Shown piece by piece: positions 9,657 to 15,077 of a stretch of 15,077 nt of DNA. The position numbers and the translations under genes were made by a program. The first letter of the stretch is position 1, and every line of letters starts with the position of its first letter. The notes under the pieces are model-generated. The model was not told where the DNA came from and made no database searches. It saw only the letters and a list, made by a program, of their open reading frames with translations. The DNA comes from Candidatus Gastranaerophilales bacterium (lineage in GTDB: Bacteria > Cyanobacteriota > Vampirovibrionia > Gastranaerophilales > Gastranaerophilaceae), in assembly GCA_021202305.1 (NCBI GenBank), contig JAJQDG010000070.1, positions 1 to 15,077 of the forward strand, given 5' to 3'.

Positions 9657-9908
9657 AGTTTGCGGAAAAATTAAAATCTTTTGCGAAGCCGGTGTGGAGG
9701 TCGGGTGGATGACACCCGGCCGTAACACTACGGCGGAGCTGCAAAGCCGGTATACTCACGGAGTATCCAGCCAGTAGCAAAATCAGAGATTTTGACCGGC
9801 AGATTACCGGTGCGGGCAGGTGGATACACCCGCACGTGAAGCACTACGGCAGGCGGGAGCGGAAGCGCATGCCCTGACAGGGCAAAAGCTCATTCCTGTA
9901 TTTTTTGG
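9657..9908. repeat. GC-rich hairpin repeat, copy A (inverted relative to B)
   Basis: A 252-nt element between convergent aspS and gtrA, far richer in GC than its neighbours. On the minus strand it matches copy B. The arm 9828-9908 is identical over 81 nt to 12915-12995, and 9683-9734 matches 13036-13087 with 2 differences; the AT-rich edge 9657-9682 also matches. Between the arms A has its own insert. Successive hairpins on the + strand: GGTCGGGTG/CACCCGGCC with loop GATGA (9699-9721); GGTATACTC/GAGTATCC (9749-9768); CAAAATC/GATTTTG (9778-9794); GTGCGGG/CCCGCAC (9810-9835); TGCCCT/AGGGCA (9870-9884). No coding frame is credible. It resembles a BIME/REP-type or MITE-type element, but I do not recognise the family. 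Confidence 0.9.
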
Positions 9909-9934
9909 ATTTTTAGGCATCCTCAAAACGCATT

Positions 9935-10426
9935 TTATTTTGAAGTTTTGCTAAAAACAAAATATTTCAAAATCAGAAAAGAAATCATTGCAATAGGAAA
10001 AACCAAAATTGCTTGAGAGAGGTATTTATCAACTCCTATGGTATTTACGAGCGTATCAAGCGCATAACGGTTAATAAAAAACGTAATCAGATACGATAAA
10101 AAGAATTTTAAAATAAGCTTATTATTTTTGTTTTTAAAAACAATTCTGCCTGTGGTTTGAAAATTAAAAAGAATACCTATTATGTAAGATATCCCGAGTG
10201 AAAACGTTGCATGTCCCGTTATTGTAACAAAAAATGCGTATACAATATAGGAAAAAACGGTGTTCATGAAGCCGACAAACAAATATTTAACAAATTTCCT
10301 TTCAAAATGGCTCAAAATTCCGAAACAAAATTTAGTATAAAACCATTCAAAGATGTTAAAAAGTACGGAGCAAAGTTTTTTATACTCCGTACTTTCCTTT
10401 ATTGAATTTTCAACCTTTTCAAACAA
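9935..10426 (-). CDS. GtrA-like small polytopic membrane protein
   Basis: GtrA-family proteins have four membrane helices and are thought to move undecaprenyl-phosphate-linked sugars across the membrane, or otherwise assist cell-surface glycosylation. Here four hydrophobic segments lie at about 47-68, 74-92, 104-122 and 136-156, with FVKYLFVGFMNTVFSY and FNFQTTGRIVFK typical of the family. The longest reading starts at TTG 10426, directly after the rplA stop, but its first 35 or so residues span a terminator hairpin (10358-10395) and are not typical of GtrA. A TTG at 10315 would give 126 aa, closer to the usual size, with only a weak ribosome-binding sequence. The substrate is unknown; a link to rhamnose genes 9 kb away is speculative. 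Confidence 0.72.
   Translation of the reverse strand: MFEKVENSIKESTEYKKLCSVLFNIFEWFYTKFCFGILSHFERKFVKYLFVGFMNTVFSYIVYAFFVTITGHATFSLGISYIIGILFNFQTTGRIVFKNKNNKLILKFFLSYLITFFINRYALDTLVNTIGVDKYLSQAILVFPIAMISFLILKYFVFSKTSK
10358..10395 (-). terminator. Intrinsic terminator after rplA
   Basis: On the minus strand AAGTACGGAG (10394-10385), a 14-nt loop and CTCCGTACTT (10370-10361) form a perfect 10-bp stem whose 3' side runs into a T5 stretch. It lies 32-69 nt after the rplA stop and fits the end of the rpmG-rplA unit. It also falls inside the longest open reading of gtrA, so either the gtrA start is further downstream or gtrA is expressed only by read-through. Confidence 0.75.
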
Positions 10427-11152
10427 TTATTCAATATATTCCTTGATTTCAAGAGCAATATTTTTCGTGTCCAGCTTAATCCCCGGCCCCATCGTTGTTG
10501 AAAGGTAAGCGGATTTTATATAGGTACCCTTTGCACTTGCGGGTTTTGCCTTAATAACCGCATCAGCAAGCGTAGAATAGTTTTTCATTAAATCTTCTTT
10601 TGAAAATTTAATTTTGCCCAAAGGCACGTGTATCATCCCCTGTTTATCGGCTCTAAATTCAACCTTGCCCGCTTTTGCATCTTTAACAGCTTTTGCAACA
10701 TCCGGTGTAACCGTTCCTGTTTTAGGGTTTGGCATTAAGCCTTTAGGCCCCAAGATACGCCCCAATTTTCCTAAAGGCGCCATCATATCAGGAGTTGCAA
10801 TTAATGTATCAAATTCAAACCAGCCGTTTTGAATTTTTTCAATAATATCTTCAGCGCCCGCCTCATCCGCACCTGCTTCTTTTGCTATTTGAGCTTTATC
10901 TGCTTTTGCAATTACGCATACGCGAACGGTTTTACCTAAGCCTGCAGGCAAAACGGTTGTGCTTCTAACCTGCTGATCTGCATGCTTAACTTCAATGCCC
11001 AATCTCATGTGGCATTCTACCGTTTCATCAAATTTAGCAGTTTCACCTGCAACTTTTTGAAGCATTTCTATTGCACAAGAAGCGCTGGTGGGTTGCGTGA
11101 AGCCTTCCATAAGTTCTTGTATTTTTTTCTGTTTTTTTGTTAGTTTTGACAT
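10427..11152 (-). CDS. rplA: 50S ribosomal protein L1
   Basis: Binds 23S rRNA at the mobile L1 stalk, which assists release of the E-site tRNA; in several bacteria it also represses its own mRNA. The 241-aa protein is close to the usual 230-235, with a short charged N-terminal extension. The family signature region is visible as [20 protein letters not shown] at about residues 119-138, followed by [11 protein letters not shown]. The ATG at 11152 has AAAGGAG just upstream. It follows rplK by 49 nt. In most bacteria rplJ and rplL follow; here the operon ends at a terminator and a gtrA-like gene comes next. Confidence 0.98.
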
Positions 11153-11201
11153 TTTATCTCCTTTTTGCGGTATTTAACGGCAAAAAATTGCCTCCCGACG
11201 A

Positions 11202-11636
11202 TTAATCAACAACGGTAACACCCATTGAACGCGCCGAGCCTGCAATCATTTTAACTGCGGCATCCAGGCTTGTTGCATTAAGGTCTTGCATTTTTGTTTT
11301 TGCAATTTCTTCAAGCTGGGCATGTGTTATCTGCCCGACTTTTGTTTTATTCGGTTCGGCCGAACCTTTATTTAAGCTTATTGCTTTTTTAATTAAAACA
11401 GCTGCCGGAGGTGATTTTGTAACGAATGTAAAACTTCTATCCTCGTAAACATCAATAACGACAGGAATGATATACCCTGCCATAGAAGACGTTCTTTCGT
11501 TGAACTGTTTGCAAAAATCCATTATGTTGACGCCCTTTTGCCCTAATGCAGGACCCACGGGCGGCGACGGATTTGCTTTTCCGGCTTCAATTTGAAGTTT
11601 AATTTTTCCGGTAACTTTTTTGTTTGTTGGTGCCAT
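11202..11636 (-). CDS. rplK: 50S ribosomal protein L11
   Basis: Binds the GTPase-associated region of 23S rRNA with the L10/L12 stalk and is needed for stringent-response signalling through RelA-type enzymes. At 144 aa it has normal length. The proline-rich start [20 protein letters not shown] (about 23-42) and the C-terminal [11 protein letters not shown] (about 132-142) are diagnostic. It starts 47 nt after nusG, in the conserved order secE-nusG-rplK-rplA. A GGAAAGGAAG run precedes the ATG. Confidence 0.98.
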
Positions 11637-11683
11637 TATTTTCTTCCTTTCCGTGGTATTAGCAGACTTTTAATGTCCTTCCA

Positions 11684-12283
11684 CTATACTTTTTGTATTT
11701 GTTTGTATTCAAGCTCAACAGGCGTTTCACGTCCAAAAATTGAAACCATTGCTCTGAGTTTTGATTTATCGGGATAAACTTCTGATATATCACCGATAAA
11801 TTCTGCAAAAGGTCCTGATACAATGCGGACTTTATCGCCAACTTTAACATCAAGCTCGATTTTTTGAACACTTGAAGCGCCTCTGTGAATAATTTTCTTA
11901 ATCTCGGAATCTTTAGCCGGAATCGGTTTTTTAGAGGAGCCGACAAATTTTGTAACCCCCGCCGTGTGGCGCACAACATACCATGAATCGTCGTCCATAA
12001 TCATTTCAACCAGAACATATCCGGGAAAGATTTTTTCTTCTCTTTCGGTTTTTTTGCCGCCTTTAACCTGAGTTATTGTTTTTTGAGGAACTTCCACCCT
12101 AAAAATCTTCTCGCCCATATTCATATATTCAATACGTTTTTCAAGATTTACTTTCACCTTGTTTTCGTGTCCCGAATATGTATGAACAACGTACCAGCGC
12201 TTTTTGGGAGAAGCATCTTTTACTTTAGATTCCTCATCGGCATTTTGAGGTTCATTTGTAATATTTTCTTCGTTATCAGACAT
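11684..12283 (-). CDS. nusG: Transcription termination/antitermination factor NusG
   Basis: Elongation factor that binds RNA polymerase and links it to Rho or to the ribosome through S10. The 199-aa protein has an acidic, disordered N-terminal extension of about 28 residues, then the NGN domain from RWYVVHTYSGHE (29-40) through FPGYVLVEM (86-94), and a C-terminal KOW domain at about 145-180 (VKVGDKVRIVSGPFAEFIGDI). The extension makes it longer than E. coli NusG (181). It starts 6 nt after the secE stop; the ribosome-binding sequence overlaps that TAG, so translation is probably coupled. Confidence 0.98.
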   Translation of the reverse strand: MSDNEENITNEPQNADEESKVKDASPKKRWYVVHTYSGHENKVKVNLEKRIEYMNMGEKIFRVEVPQKTITQVKGGKKTEREEKIFPGYVLVEMIMDDDSWYVVRHTAGVTKFVGSSKKPIPAKDSEIKKIIHRGASSVQKIELDVKVGDKVRIVSGPFAEFIGDISEVYPDKSKLRAMVSIFGRETPVELEYKQIQKV

Positions 12284-12289
12284 TTTTTC

Positions 12290-12505
12290 CTACCTTGCGA
12301 TTAATCCCAACAGATATCCAAAAATTTTATCCAAAAGGAAAACTATAACCGTAAACAGAAAAACAACAATCGCAACCAGACCCGTTTCAAAGATGATTTG
12401 ATTTTTTTCAGGCCAGGTTACTTTTCCCCACTCGGAACGAACACCTTTAAAATAAGATATAAGCCCGTCTTTGAAGCTATTTTTGTTATTTTGCGTGTTT
12501 GCCAT
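12290..12505 (-). CDS. secE: Preprotein translocase subunit SecE
   Basis: Essential clamp of the SecYEG channel in the inner membrane. This is the short single-helix form: 71 aa, a cytoplasmic amphipathic segment with the conserved EWGKVTWP (25-32), then one membrane helix at about 40-58. The frame is open further upstream into the tRNA gene, but the ATG at 12505 is chosen because GGGAAG lies just before it and upstream starts would read through tRNA-Trp. It follows tRNA-Trp by 21 nt and precedes nusG by 6 nt, the usual arrangement. Confidence 0.96.
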   Translation of the reverse strand: MANTQNNKNSFKDGLISYFKGVRSEWGKVTWPEKNQIIFETGLVAIVVFLFTVIVFLLDKIFGYLLGLIAR

Positions 12506-12526
12506 TTTCTTCCCTTTTTCAAAAAC

Positions 12527-12599
12527 CGCGCCCTGAAGGACTCGAACCCTCGACATCCGGTTTTGGAGACCGACGTTCTACCAACTGAACTAAGGACGC
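12527..12599 (-). tRNA. trnW: tRNA-Trp (anticodon CCA)
   Basis: A 73-nt cloverleaf on the minus strand: acceptor stem GCGTCCT/AGGGCGC with one G-T pair, D arm with TAGTTCAGTTGGTAGA, anticodon stem TCGGT/ACCGG around loop CTCCAAA (anticodon CCA), 5-nt variable loop, and T arm GAGGG-TTCGAGT-CCTTC. The discriminator base is G, as in bacterial tRNA-Trp. The 3' CCA is not encoded and must be added. It lies between rpmG and secE, so it is probably cut from the operon transcript, as in many bacteria. Confidence 0.97.
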
Positions 12600-12615
12600 A
12601 GGGCACATCCTAAAG

Positions 12616-12783
12616 TTATTTTGTTTCTTTGTGTACAGTGTGTTTATTACATCTTGAGCAGAATTTTTTGAGTTCCATTCTTTCTTTTAAAGTTTTTTTG
12701 TTTTTCGTAGTCGTGTAATTTCTTTCTTTACAATCTTCGCAAGCAAGAACAACCATTCTGTCGTTTTTACCTTTAATACCCAT
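12616..12783 (-). CDS. rpmG: 50S ribosomal protein L33
   Basis: Small large-subunit protein of 55 aa. Two CxxC pairs (Cys15/Cys18 and Cys42/Cys45) make it the zinc-binding C+ form. The sequence [20 protein letters not shown] and the later [11 protein letters not shown] are typical of the family. The ATG at 12783 has AAGGAG at good spacing. It is the first gene of the unit continuing into tRNA-Trp, secE, nusG, rplK and rplA. C+ copies are often paired with zinc-free paralogs elsewhere in a genome; that cannot be judged from this window. Confidence 0.95.
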
Positions 12784-12813
12784 TGAAGCTCTCCTTCATG
12801 TTTTTAGCCAATT

Positions 12814-12840
12814 AAAAATGCCCTTCCGGCGACAAGGACA
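12814..12840 (-). terminator. Terminator-like hairpin in the rpmG upstream region
   Basis: On the minus strand TGTCCTT (12840-12834), an 8-nt loop and AAGGGCA (12825-12819) pair over 7 bp with one wobble, followed by T5 (12818-12814). It lies just after the predicted transcription start of the rpmG unit and 31 nt before the ATG. It could insulate the unit from pilT read-through or act as an attenuator in the ribosomal-protein leader. The stem is modest, so the call is tentative. Confidence 0.4.
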
Positions 12841-12851
12841 TTTATAAACTA

Positions 12852-12879
12852 ATTCTAACAGGAACAAATTTTTTGTAAA
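12852..12879 (-). promoter_or_regulatory. Candidate promoter of the rpmG-trnW-secE-nusG-rplKA unit
   Basis: Minus strand TTTACA (12879-12874), a 16-nt spacer and TAGAAT (12857-12852) match a sigma70-type promoter with one mismatch per box. The predicted start near 12845 leaves a leader of about 60 nt that begins with the hairpin at 12814-12840. Confidence 0.5.
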
Positions 12880-12914
12880 GCTAAAAAGATTAAGTATTGT
12901 GGATGCAGAAAAAC

Positions 12915-13126
12915 CCAAAAAATACAGGAATGAGCTTTTGCCCTGTCAGGGCATGCGCTTCCGCTCCCGCCTGCCGTAGTGCTTCACGTGCGGGTCTCAT
13001 CGACACCGCCCGTATCGGCACCGGCTTCGCTGCTCGCCGTAGTGTTACGGTCGTGTGTCATCCACCCGACCTCCACACCGGCTTCGCGCACCGGCTTCGC
13101 AAAAGATTTTAATTTTTCCGCAAACT
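12915..13126. repeat. GC-rich hairpin repeat, copy B
   Basis: A 212-nt element just downstream of pilT (14 nt after its stop), in the + orientation used here as reference. 12915-12995 is identical to the minus strand of copy A; 12973-13087 matches copy C (14638-14749) except for one substitution and a 4-versus-1-nt segment. Compared with A it carries a 13-nt tandem duplication (GCACCGGCTTCGC, 13088-13100), so that motif ends both 13087 and 13100. The palindrome GCCCTGTCAGGGC and an imperfect GGTCGTGTG/CACCCGACC hairpin are kept. Together with the rpmG promoter it accounts for the 357-nt gap between rpmG and pilT. Open frames across it reflect high GC, not a gene. Confidence 0.9.
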
Positions 13127-13140
13127 CTGTTTATAAAACT

Positions 13141-14214
13141 TTAACCCATACCAAGCATGCGTTTGAGGTCATCGGGATGCTGCGATTTTGAAAGCGCATC
13201 CGATAATTCCACTTTTTTGGCGGCAACAAGCGCTTGAAGCGACATATCTAATGTCTGCATGCCCATTGAAGCACCGGTTTGGAGCGATGAATATATTTGA
13301 GAGGTTTTTTGCTCGCGGATAAGGTTTGCAATTGCGCTTGTAACAAGCATAATTTCCTGCGCCATGGCGCGTCCTTTTTTTGTAAAGCCGTCAGGCGCCA
13401 ATTTTGGAAGCAGCGTTTGCGAAAATACTGCTATCAAGCTGTTTGAAAGCTGCAAACGAATTTGCTGCTGCTGACCTTCCGGAAAAACGTCCACGATACG
13501 GTCAATTGTCTGTGCGGCAGATGAAGTGTGCAGTGTACCCATAACAAGGTGTCCCGTTTCAGCAGCGGTCAGGGCAAGCGAAATTGTTTCCAAATCTCTC
13601 ATTTCACCAACCAGAATAACATCAGGATCTTCGCGCAGCGCACTTCTTAATGCGTTCGTCATACTTCTTGTATCCTGCCCCAATTCCCTCTGGTGAACAA
13701 TGCTTTTTTTAGAAGTATGCACAAATTCAATAGGATCCTCTATTGTAATAATATGTTCCGCACGCATAGAATTTATATAGTCAATCATAGCAGCAAGCGT
13801 TGTTGATTTACCCGAACCTGTAGGACCTGTTACCAGAATAAGCCCTCTCGGTTTATCGGCAGTAGTTTTTACAACAGGCGGCAGCCCCAAACTTTCAAAT
13901 GTAGGCGGGGTGGAATTTACCGTTCTGAATGCCGCAGCATAGTTGCTTTTGTCGCGGTATATATTAACCCTGAAACGTCCAAGCCCGTGAAGCCCGTAGC
14001 CAAAGTCTAATTCCCAGGTTTGTTCCAATGTTCTTCTTTGTTCATTTGTTAAAATCGGAAAAAGGAGAGTTTCGACATCTTCAGGAGATAAAACCGGCAG
14101 ATTTGTTCTGACCAGTTCGCCGTCTATTCTTATAACAGGGGGAAGATAAGAGCTTATATGTATATCGGACGCTTTCTTTTGAACTGCAAGTTCCAAAATT
14201 TCTTCTATAATCAT
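13141..14214 (-). CDS. pilT: Type IV pilus retraction ATPase PilT
   Basis: Cytoplasmic hexameric secretion ATPase that drives pilus retraction and twitching motility. All PilT landmarks are present in 357 aa: N-terminal SDIHISSYLPPVIRIDGEL (16-34), Walker A GPTGSGKST (130-138), Asp box IITIEDPIEF (155-164), Walker B DVILVGEMRD (198-207), His box TGHLVMGTLHTSS (220-232) and the retraction motif AIANLIREQK (294-303), AIRNLIRE in most PilTs. The last supports PilT over the extension ATPase PilB, which also has a long N-domain that is absent here. Other pilus genes are not in the window. It has its own promoter and stands alone; repeat B follows its stop. Confidence 0.96.
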   Translation of the reverse strand: MIIEEILELAVQKKASDIHISSYLPPVIRIDGELVRTNLPVLSPEDVETLLFPILTNEQRRTLEQTWELDFGYGLHGLGRFRVNIYRDKSNYAAAFRTVNSTPPTFESLGLPPVVKTTADKPRGLILVTGPTGSGKSTTLAAMIDYINSMRAEHIITIEDPIEFVHTSKKSIVHQRELGQDTRSMTNALRSALREDPDVILVGEMRDLETISLALTAAETGHLVMGTLHTSSAAQTIDRIVDVFPEGQQQQIRLQLSNSLIAVFSQTLLPKLAPDGFTKKGRAMAQEIMLVTSAIANLIREQKTSQIYSSLQTGASMGMQTLDMSLQALVAAKKVELSDALSKSQHPDDLKRMLGMG

Positions 14215-14243
14215 GGTTAAATTCTTTCAATTACTATGATTTG

Positions 14244-14273
14244 ATTTTAGTATATGAAATTGCTCCTTGTCAA
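14244..14273 (-). promoter_or_regulatory. Promoter of pilT
   Basis: Minus strand TTGACA (14273-14268), an 18-nt spacer and TAAAAT (14249-14244): a full consensus -35 and a five-of-six -10. Transcription would begin near 14237, leaving about 22 nt before the ATG. This is the clearest sigma70-type promoter in the window; the ribosome-binding sequence after it is weak (GAAAGAA). Confidence 0.65.
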
Positions 14274-14329
14274 TATAATTTCAGGCGGGCTTATTATGCA
14301 GTTTTGTGAAGCAGATGAGTTTGCGGCTT

Positions 14330-14378
14330 GCCGCAGTGCTTCATCAGCACCGGCTCCGCATGCCGCAATTGTTACGGG
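14330..14378. repeat. Degenerate fragment of the GC-rich repeat
   Basis: This stretch reads as copy C lacking an internal 28 nt: GCCGCAGTGCTTC joins directly to ATCAGCACCGGCTCCGC, then a divergent GCCGCAATTGTTACGGG. Copy C has the same blocks (GCCGTAGTGCTTC, ATCAGCACCGGCTTCGC, GCCGTAGTGTTACGG) in the same order and orientation. It shows base changes and a 1-nt indel, so it looks like an older, decaying copy. Confidence 0.65.
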
Positions 14379-14447
14379 TCTAGTTCAATATACAGCGCTA
14401 CCAATTGCCGGCGTTACGTTACGTATCGGGGCTGCTTGTTCCTCGCC

Positions 14448-14493
14448 GCGGGAGCTGGAGCGTTCGGTGCAGCCGATAAGCTCATTCCCGCGT
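14448..14493. repeat. Possible inverted fragment of the repeat's outer arm
   Basis: GCGGGAGC, then a G/A-rich block and AAGCTCATTCC, occurs in the same order and orientation as in copy A (9854-9897: GCGGGAGC ... AAGCTCATTCC). The middle is diverged. If homologous, it is the outer arm in the opposite orientation to copy C, making 14280-14749 a mosaic of fragments. The match is short and could be partly chance. Confidence 0.4.
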
Positions 14494-14506
14494 TAAACGG
14501 CATTAC

Positions 14507-14533
14507 GTGTCGAAGGCTCAACGCCTTCGACAC
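14507..14533. other. Perfect 11-bp hairpin within the repeat mosaic
   Basis: GTGTCGAAGGC (14507-14517) and GCCTTCGACAC (14523-14533) are exact inverse complements around the 5-nt loop TCAAC. No T-run follows on either strand, so it is not a standard terminator. It is not shared with copies A or B. It could be a protein-binding palindrome or a structural part of another repeat module. Confidence 0.7.
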
Positions 14534-14592
14534 TCCAGCCTCTTACTTCTCGCAAAAACTTGCCACCGGCAACTTTCCCGCGGGCGACCCTA

Positions 14593-14749
14593 CGCCGGCT
14601 TCGCGCACCGGCTGGATACTCCGTGAGTGCTTCGCACGCCGTAGTGCTTCACGTGCGGGTCTCATCGACACCGCCCGTATCAGCACCGGCTTCGCACGCC
14701 GTAGTGTTACGGTCGTGTGTCATCCACCCGACCTCCACACCGGCTTCGC
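14593..14749. repeat. GC-rich hairpin repeat, copy C
   Basis: Same orientation as copy B. 14638-14749 matches 12973-13087 almost exactly. Upstream it carries GGCTGGATACTCCGTGAGT (14610-14628), which is in copy A (minus strand of 9755-9773) but not in B, so C holds pieces of both. It lacks the 81-nt outer arm and the conserved AT-rich edge of A and B; after 14749 the sequence turns to an unrelated T-rich run. It lies about 380 nt upstream of the pilT start, not after a visible stop codon, unlike A and B. The 14328-14837 frame across it is open only because of its composition. Confidence 0.85.
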
Positions 14750-14810
14750 GGAGAAAAATTTTATTTTTTTCATACATCTTTCTTTTTTGGTAATTTTTTT
14801 GCAAGTTGTT

Positions 14811-14880
14811 TTAATGCCGCGACAGTTTTTGTTTTAAAGCGGAACATTGTTTGCCGCTGCTTTAAAAAATTTGGCATTAA
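14811..14880. other. Nested inverted repeat in a gene-free AT-rich region
   Basis: The outer arms TTAATGCC (14811-14818) and GGCATTAA (14873-14880) enclose inner arms TTTTAAAGC (14832-14840) and GCTTTAAAA (14859-14867). The result is a two-stage stem with asymmetric internal loops and an 18-nt apical part. No T-run follows on either strand. The surrounding 14770-15050 has no credible coding frame. It may be part of a small RNA ending at 15077, a leader of a gene beyond the window, or a regulatory palindrome. Confidence 0.5.
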
Positions 14881-15050
14881 GCGATTATTAAGTTTTGTAA
14901 CAATATATACTCAGTATTGCAATTTTATATACTAAGAATACTTTATATAAATGTAAGCGATGAGCATTCAAAACAAACGAGATATTTAAGAAACTTAATC
15001 AAACCAACACATAACCTAACTTCCTAACCTTCCCTTCCTATTATAGATTT

Positions 15051-15077
15051 ACTCCCTTATTAAAAGGGAGTTTTTTT
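15051..15077 (+). terminator. Intrinsic terminator at the window edge
   Basis: ACTCCCTT (15051-15058), a 5-nt loop and AAGGGAGT (15064-15071) form an 8-bp stem, and T7 (15071-15077) begins with the last paired base and runs to the window end. It ends a + strand transcript, yet no + strand gene lies within about 5.4 kb upstream (aspS ends at 9638). The transcript is therefore probably noncoding, starting between about 14770 and 15000, or it is a leader attenuator for a gene to the right. Confidence 0.8.

Follow-up and report, generated by a model that had tools for sequence, protein, structure and literature searches.

BOX elements of pneumococcus are modular repeats with a middle module that can be repeated. 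Rickettsia palindromic elements (RPE) are reported to be palindromic, approximately 105–146 bp in length, and inserted in frame in protein genes as well as in RNA genes, and target duplication has been reported for the NEMIS/Correia, ERIC, and RUP repeats, which are shorter than 200 bp and structured as RNA (PMC2229807). REP sequences of the GTAG and CGTC classes are hairpins found near the 3' ends of genes, some in open reading frames (ORFs), in other palindromes, and as mosaics, and the CGTC class seems to have no dedicated transposase (PMC3733652). Bacterial operons are shaped by small mobile repeats, some of which spread without a known enzyme, the CGTC REPs being a published example (PMC3733652). 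Here, we analyzed a stretch of 15,077 nucleotides (nt) from Candidatus Gastranaerophilales bacterium (contig JAJQDG010000070.1 of assembly GCA_021202305.1; hereafter the window), which contains three GC-rich blocks, A, B, and C. Each block is a compound copy of a modular repeat, with hairpin modules strung together, and we regard the repeat as a form, amplified in this species, of a structured repeat that occurs across the order and is probably mobile. The reading we favor with fair confidence takes the blocks as compound copies of a mobile repeat that is non-autonomous and acts at the RNA level; its mechanism of spread and its RNA role are inferred.

The three blocks had been described in an earlier note made from the sequence alone, and sequence comparison confirmed the shared segments reported there. 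Block A (9657–9908) lies in inverted orientation relative to B (12915–13126) and C (14593–14749); A and B are identical over 81 nt (12915–12995), and B and C share a near-identical stretch of approximately 112–115 nt, with exact blocks of 44, 13, and 53 nt across 12973–13087 and 14638–14749. As had also been noted, the GC contents of A, B, and C (54.8, 58.0, and 65.6%) exceed that of the window (38.6%). Inspection by eye showed that C is larger than first described, being GC-rich from approximately 14316 to 14765, and that A and B reach slightly further, up to a common TTTTT(A/C)(G/T)GCATCC end. RNA folding gave z values of −3.9, −2.0, and −2.3 for A, B, and C against dinucleotide shuffles, with 0, 8, and 4 of 200 shuffles folding as well, respectively; by folding alone, A is the sole block far beyond chance.

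The repeat itself is far outside chance, because B as the query matched 36 places in its own genome (E ≤ 1e-3; 9 of them match the AT-rich end of B only) and R1, a covariance model of the module prepared from 15 sequences of this genome, detected 30 modules over 14 contigs. The assembly comprises 1.42 Mb in 240 contigs and is 82% complete, and the true number of modules is probably higher since contigs C239, C106, C103, and C18 break off within or close to a module, the end of C239 (L006) being a tandem run of identical modules at 60 nt spacing. C103 and C106, which have one module in common, may be one locus. The module is 51–61 nt long in the 15 aligned sequences and comprises an outer stem (GCCG/CGGC), a stem of GTG(T/C) with (A/G)CAC whose 3' side carries a TA bulge, an internal loop, an inner stem that varies freely and still pairs, and mostly a G(A/T)TGA loop. 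In the modules of the own genome, 93% of the cells pair, and two-sided changes amount to 48, compared with 18 for shuffled alignments and no more than 8 for slid controls; the modelled strand folds better than its complement in 18 of 21 modules (−26.1 vs. −23.9 kcal/mol).

The left ends of A and B are each half of an AT-rich palindrome, AGTTTGCGGAAAAATTAAAATTTTT, many solo copies of which continue with CCGCAAACT or CCGCATCCTCA or variants of these. The palindrome pattern matched 33 times in the own genome with up to 3 mismatches, corresponding to 31 places as two palindromes match both strands, and the reversed pattern matched 0 times. These places are found among L026–L030 and L201–L225; in most of the 31 rows the palindrome is solo, without the GC-rich module, and in 13 it follows a reading frame of 70 codons or more at a distance of up to 20 nt. 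At A, B, and a few more loci, the GC-rich cassette is thus nested within this second, AT-rich palindromic repeat, to which the TGCGGAAAAA...TTTTTCCGCA termini bounding the composites of the own genome (by eye) belong. Separately, we observed at L005, L027, and L028 a further dispersed repeat, which has a TCTCACACACC-like block and an inner hairpin rich in GC (GCATGCTGTGTG...CACACAGCATGC in L028), and in L012 (1500–2340) a prophage-like region with more GC-rich hairpin strings between genes, without an R1 match.

As judged from syntenic comparison, B and C are lineage-specific insertions. B is an insertion because the gap between pilT and rpmG lacks a GC-rich block in all three congeners in which the two genes are adjacent (L156, L158, and L161), the remaining five congeners having a different pilT/rpmG neighbourhood. 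At the C site, a conserved non-coding block lies upstream of pilT in seven of the eight congeners, and nothing GC-rich separates it from the gene (by eye); the window retains the conserved upstream block on the far side of C. We also observed that the non-coding block at 14800–15077, upstream of the pilT-like gene (AGGAAGGGAAGGTTAGGAAGTTAGG and its surroundings, other strand), is kept in seven of the eight congeners (by eye).

The GC-rich module is a species-level shortened form of an order-wide two-hairpin element. Searching 57 relatives with R1 yielded one copy, located in the 16S–23S spacer of G008 (E 2e-5; an unbiased search). When a pattern scan of named genomes was rescored with R1, 8 of 31 stretches exceeded 27 bits, scores that are biased upward as the pattern preselects conserved letters; Candidatus Gastranaerophilales records came first (L093, L095, L101, L108, L118, and L122), together with L116 (UBA947, labelled 'Cyanobacteria') and L092 (RGIG5263, labelled 'Bacterium'). 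The other 23 stretches, the best being L111 (25.9 bits), were taken as chance. The long element shares its first hairpin, which has a TACGA bulge, with the module and continues with GGCGACGT, a second hairpin, and CAGGAGC. Ten long-element sequences, none from the own genome, were used to prepare a second model, R2, which is not independent of R1 as these sequences had been located through R1; the loci for R2 were taken from the best matches only. R2 matched 77 of 192 genomes of the order, the own genome included (as many as 18 matches in a single genome), and 37 of 194 genomes in a sample of the phylum, all 37 within the family of the window. In the own genome, R2 matched 6 places, each of which is an R1 module. 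We analyzed 59 of 61 R2 hits, excluding L152 1501–1596 (the same place as L068 1455–1550) and L140 1595–1656 (weak); the element is typically approximately 90–130 nt long and ranges from 61 to 131 nt across the 59. The E-values of these searches are approximate, ORFs were called mechanically, some of those overlapping copies being short and doubtful, and a named genome record may duplicate an unlabelled one.

Among viral contigs, an exact 28-mer had 0 matches, the module pattern found two stretches (L090, a genuine copy, and L091, with no R1 match at E ≤ 1), and an 18-letter pattern found L090 again plus L226 and L227 (no R2 match at E ≤ 0.1). A loose pattern of the 3' half gave 103 stretches, 80 of which were turned into loci, and the best E-value of R2 across 82 sources (L226–L307) was 0.037, which we took as chance and as a control of specificity. 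Three weak DNA matches in relatives (L031, L032, and L033) were dropped; L031 and L032 look coding by eye.

The order-wide copies often lie near the 3' ends of genes: 21 of the 59 begin no more than 6 nt from a stop codon that closes an ORF on the same strand (approximately 15 distinct sites), and the mirror case, an opposite-strand stop codon within 6 nt of the 3' end, was found in 0 of 59. At four sites, the CAGGAG end stands directly before a start codon (by eye), namely between phage tail genes (L133, L135, and L136), before the gene of the terminase large subunit (L090), and in L142 and L145. The neighborhoods of other copies include the gap between groES and groEL (L092; genes named by eye), tRNA starts (L125, L130, L131, and L139; by eye), an rRNA spacer (L059), and the space between convergent HTH and Gp49-like genes (L134; tested with Pfam), the last of which recurs by eye in L138, L141, L143, L146, and L147, altogether in six genomes from five genera. 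Two insertions of the own genome fall within phage ORFs, those of the Mu-type portal and the tape measure, both of which remain open across the element with the frame kept, as known for RPE. The insert in the portal gene amounts to 36 codons near the gene start, and 76 residues precede the common LPNPD versus 46 in a viral homologue, the start of which is assumed.

Flanking duplications accompany a subset of the copies. Direct repeats scoring at least 12 (13–44 bp) were found in 11 of 56 loci but in none of 588 mismatched pairs (control maximum 11), in a test that required the upstream repeat copy to end no further than 5 nt from the element and excluded pairs with like starts of the downstream flank; three of the 59 copies were dropped for a flank shorter than 60 nt. 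The downstream repeat copy starts 0–32 nt after the element. In a looser version of the test, in which related loci had been paired, the control reached 10 at 95%, 14 at 99%, and 58 at maximum. At the tRNA-Leu locus of the genus g22, for which 24 of 27 loci gave a row, the first seven bases of the tRNA are repeated upstream of the intact tRNA in 10 and not in 9, and 5 have no intact tRNA. L165, L167, and L174 among the ten carry the R2 element. As an observation in its own right, L168, L170, L172, L177, and L182, five more of the ten, carry different hairpin elements upstream of the same tRNA, some with inverted copies of tRNA segments, each after a copy of the 5' end of the tRNA (by eye). L187 and L188 complete the ten; 20 of the 27 orthologous loci had been selected for viewing.

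The unit is a conserved hairpin with covarying stems. In the order-wide element (54 distinct rows), 92% of the cells pair, and two-sided changes amount to 269, while shuffled alignments reached 87 and slid controls no more than 50. Of 53 distinct copies, 52 have a more stable fold on the modelled strand than on the complementary one (mean −35.3 vs. −28.9 kcal/mol), and G-U pairs outnumber A-C mismatches by 116 to 23, with 81 of the G-U pairs at two near-invariant positions. In the window, the only Rfam hit at gathering score among 4227 models was a tRNA, and no family reached gathering score on an element in the loci of eight relatives searched at E ≤ 5; a sub-threshold Phe_leader match (L122 156–253) overlaps an element end by 5 nt. 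We rejected an intrinsic terminator, as the ten aligned long elements have CAGGAGC or a close variant after the second hairpin and no U run, and a piece of rRNA, as the rRNA-spacer copy of G008 is just one among many places. An integron attC site was tentatively rejected as well, its core motifs not being seen.

We propose the following scenario. The element would be copied to new sites by a factor supplied in trans, duplicating its target, and would be transferred between lineages partly on phages and toxin-antitoxin-like modules. It may persist because it is tolerable, as RNA of one strand, in the gap between a stop and a start codon, where the hairpin would stand behind the stop codon and, in some copies, the Shine-Dalgarno-like CAGGAG at the 3' end would allow translation of the next gene. 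The second hairpin would be missing in this species, and the first hairpin would have been amplified by tandem duplication, several copies being amplified also via insertion in the AT-rich palindromic repeat, which would have led to the GC-rich blocks.

Several points weigh against this scenario. Both alignments were fitted to their models and are thus biased towards structure, and two of the five measures of covariation fail to exceed shuffles in either of them: pairs with a two-sided change number 5 vs. 3.9 and further pair types 15 vs. 13.3 in the own modules (not clearly above shuffles), and 14 vs. 13.0 and 50 vs. 48.5, respectively, in the order-wide element (no excess). Without the two near-invariant positions, the ratio of G-U pairs to A-C mismatches falls to 35:23. 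The distance limit of 6 nt to a stop codon was chosen after the data had been viewed, and in eight copies an ORF of the opposite strand ends 8 or 19 nt within the element. Duplications occur at just 11 of 56 loci, several of which are related (L130 twice, L066 twice, L095/L118, and L148/L149), the mirrored test gave 4 of 56, tandem duplication could account for some of the flanking repeats (L066), and the copies in the window have no evident target duplication (by eye). Furthermore, just one of the 57 relatives has the short module by R1, the Shine-Dalgarno role rests on four sites examined by eye, the site common to six genomes of five genera could mean a conserved function, and no mobiliser was identified in the class searched (Y1/RAYT).

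The search for a mobiliser bears directly on the possibility that the repeats are REP/BIME sequences of the GTAG class moved by RAYT, a Y1 tyrosine transposase. The features of GTAG and CGTC REPs introduced above are shared by the element, and its opposite strand has GTAG at the foot of the inner hairpin of the module and, in the long element, CGTC as well. On the other hand, the unit is 51–131 nt rather than 20–40 nt, and GTAG here lies in the stem region (the bulge plus a paired G) and does not look like an unpaired tag. The Y1_Tnp profile found no match in the own genome, which is 82% complete, in a search aimed at Y1 only, other types of enzymes and insertion sequences (IS) not being searched, and 0 Y1_Tnp/RAYT in ten g22 genomes with 86 copies of the element. 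Taking the two samples of 192 genomes as one set, Y1_Tnp occurs in 60 and the element in 77, and both in 21 versus approximately 24 expected. We slightly raised our estimate for this explanation because a dedicated transposase seems to be missing from the CGTC REPs as well and the absence of Y1 weighs against the GTAG class alone, and still consider it unlikely. The same low standing is given to a cis-regulatory RNA, a riboswitch or an intercistronic regulator, maintained by selection rather than mobile DNA. The covariation, the conserved bulge and pentaloop, the sense orientation past stop codons, the Shine-Dalgarno-like 3' end at four sites, and the site shared by five genera all agree with such a function, but the neighbors are unrelated (phage tail and terminase genes, the groES–groEL gap, tRNA, the rRNA spacer, and the Gp49/HTH pair), and mobility is favored by the tandem copies, the copies lying in frame within ORFs, the sites that are empty in congeners, and the flanking duplications.

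A slightly smaller share of our confidence goes to an enzyme-free expansion driven by the sequence itself, in which replication slippage and template switching at hairpins would yield tandem, nested, and inverted copies. The identical tandem modules at a contig end and the negative searches for a Y1 transposase in the own genome and the ten g22 genomes are consistent with this idea, as are the solo palindromes of L027, L028, and L030, at which we observed by eye that the inverted repeat runs on into the flanks. Slippage alone nevertheless leaves unexplained the many unlinked loci, the copies in phage genes, and the 13–44 bp duplications abutting the 5' end. About as improbable in our view is a transcribed, order-wide structured RNA element with an unrecognised mechanism of spread, possibly via its own RNA, as a bacterial counterpart of SINE. 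Such a reading is suggested by the precise 5' end, the variable AT-rich 3' linker, the target duplications of 13–44 bp, and the folding of one strand, together with the preference for promoter or tRNA starts and for stop-to-start gaps and a built-in ribosome-binding site that would spare the downstream gene. The non-autonomous mobile repeat acting at the RNA level remains the reading we prefer. The family is numerous in some genomes, its fold is conserved across an order of gut bacteria, long duplications flank it at some loci, and no Y1 was found where it is most abundant. If it is indeed mobile, it would provide a testable case of structured RNA repeats entering stop-to-start gaps without silencing the next gene, and of repeats crossing lineages on phages.

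In the light of these results, most of the earlier note can be retained. The dispersed structured family it proposed is seen in the 36 places, the 30 modules on 14 contigs, and the covarying stems; what changes is that the GC-rich form is species-level only, with the order-wide two-hairpin element as its parent and A and B nested in an AT-rich palindrome. Near-identical copies do stand beside decayed ones, as identical modules accompany degenerate ones, and B and C are lineage-specific insertions. The count of copies, their mapping to gene ends, and the covariance search that it had suggested returned many copies, 21 of 59 at stop codons, and covarying stems. Neither of the outcomes it named as refuting occurred: the genome has many more copies than those of the window, the copies fit no Rfam RNA family, and a search of this genome for Y1 transposases, which did not cover other IS types, found none. 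Its likeness to REP/BIME stood for the location near gene 3' ends, seen in the order-wide copies, and failed for the size of a palindromic unit (20–40 bp), and RAYT, expected for the GTAG class, was found neither in the own genome nor in the ten g22 genomes. The statement that the copies occupy 5 kb of intergenic DNA was mistaken, since a GtrA-like gene, rplA, rplK, nusG, secE, tRNA-Trp, rpmG, and a pilT-like ATPase gene lie between the blocks; aspS, also in the window, adjoins A.

Composite elements and their parts in the window
Feature	Position	Strand	Basis and remarks
Composite element A	9657..9925	+	Starts 18 nt past the aspS stop codon; repeat and own-genome search; far end by eye against the L005 and L010 copies
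Left half, AT-rich host palindrome (A)	9657..9681	+	Pattern AGTTTGCGGAAAAATTAAAATTTTT, 1 mismatch
Hairpin module A1	9683..9734	+	R1, 68.3 bits
Hairpin module A2, degenerate	9807..9849	+	R1, 26.5 bits
Terminal hairpin of A	9853..9899	+	Common to B, similar in L005 and L010; sequence comparison, limits by eye
Composite element B	12900..13126	-	Starts 14 nt past the pilT-like stop codon; absent in 3/3 congeners with pilT beside rpmG
Terminal hairpin of B	12924..12970	-	Within the 81 nt exact match to A, limits by eye
Hairpin module B1	12973..13030	-	R1, 74.4 bits
Hairpin module B2	13036..13087	-	R1, 67.2 bits
AT-rich host palindrome half (B)	13102..13126	-	Palindrome pattern, 1 mismatch
Composite element C	14316..14765	-	Upstream of the pilT-like gene; not seen there in 7 congeners keeping the upstream block; limits by eye
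Module C1, degenerate	14330..14359	-	R1, 30.5 bits
Module C2	14638..14695	-	R1, 74.9 bits
Module C3	14698..14749	-	R1, 67.2 bits

No published repeat of Gastranaerophilales or Melainabacteria was recognised in our literature search, and the known systems were compared as follows. The modularity resembles that of the BOX elements in form. Like the MITE-like repeats (NEMIS/Correia, ERIC, and RUP), the element is shorter than 200 bp and structured as RNA; no clear terminal inverted repeats were seen in the order-wide element (by eye), and the flanking duplications at some of its loci are 13–44 bp. The element differs from REP/BIME in being longer, in having a second hairpin, conserved blocks, no evident unpaired tag, and duplications at some loci, and in that no Y1 transposase was found in the own genome and the ten g22 genomes, while it resembles them, as described in PMC3733652 and PMC12306157, as a short palindromic repeat near gene 3' ends, with some copies in ORFs, in mosaics, and nested in palindromes. 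Finally, RPE belong to another organism, and the conserved two-hairpin fold is what sets the present element apart from them; compared by description, the two agree in size, in palindromic form, and in insertion both in frame in protein genes and in RNA genes.

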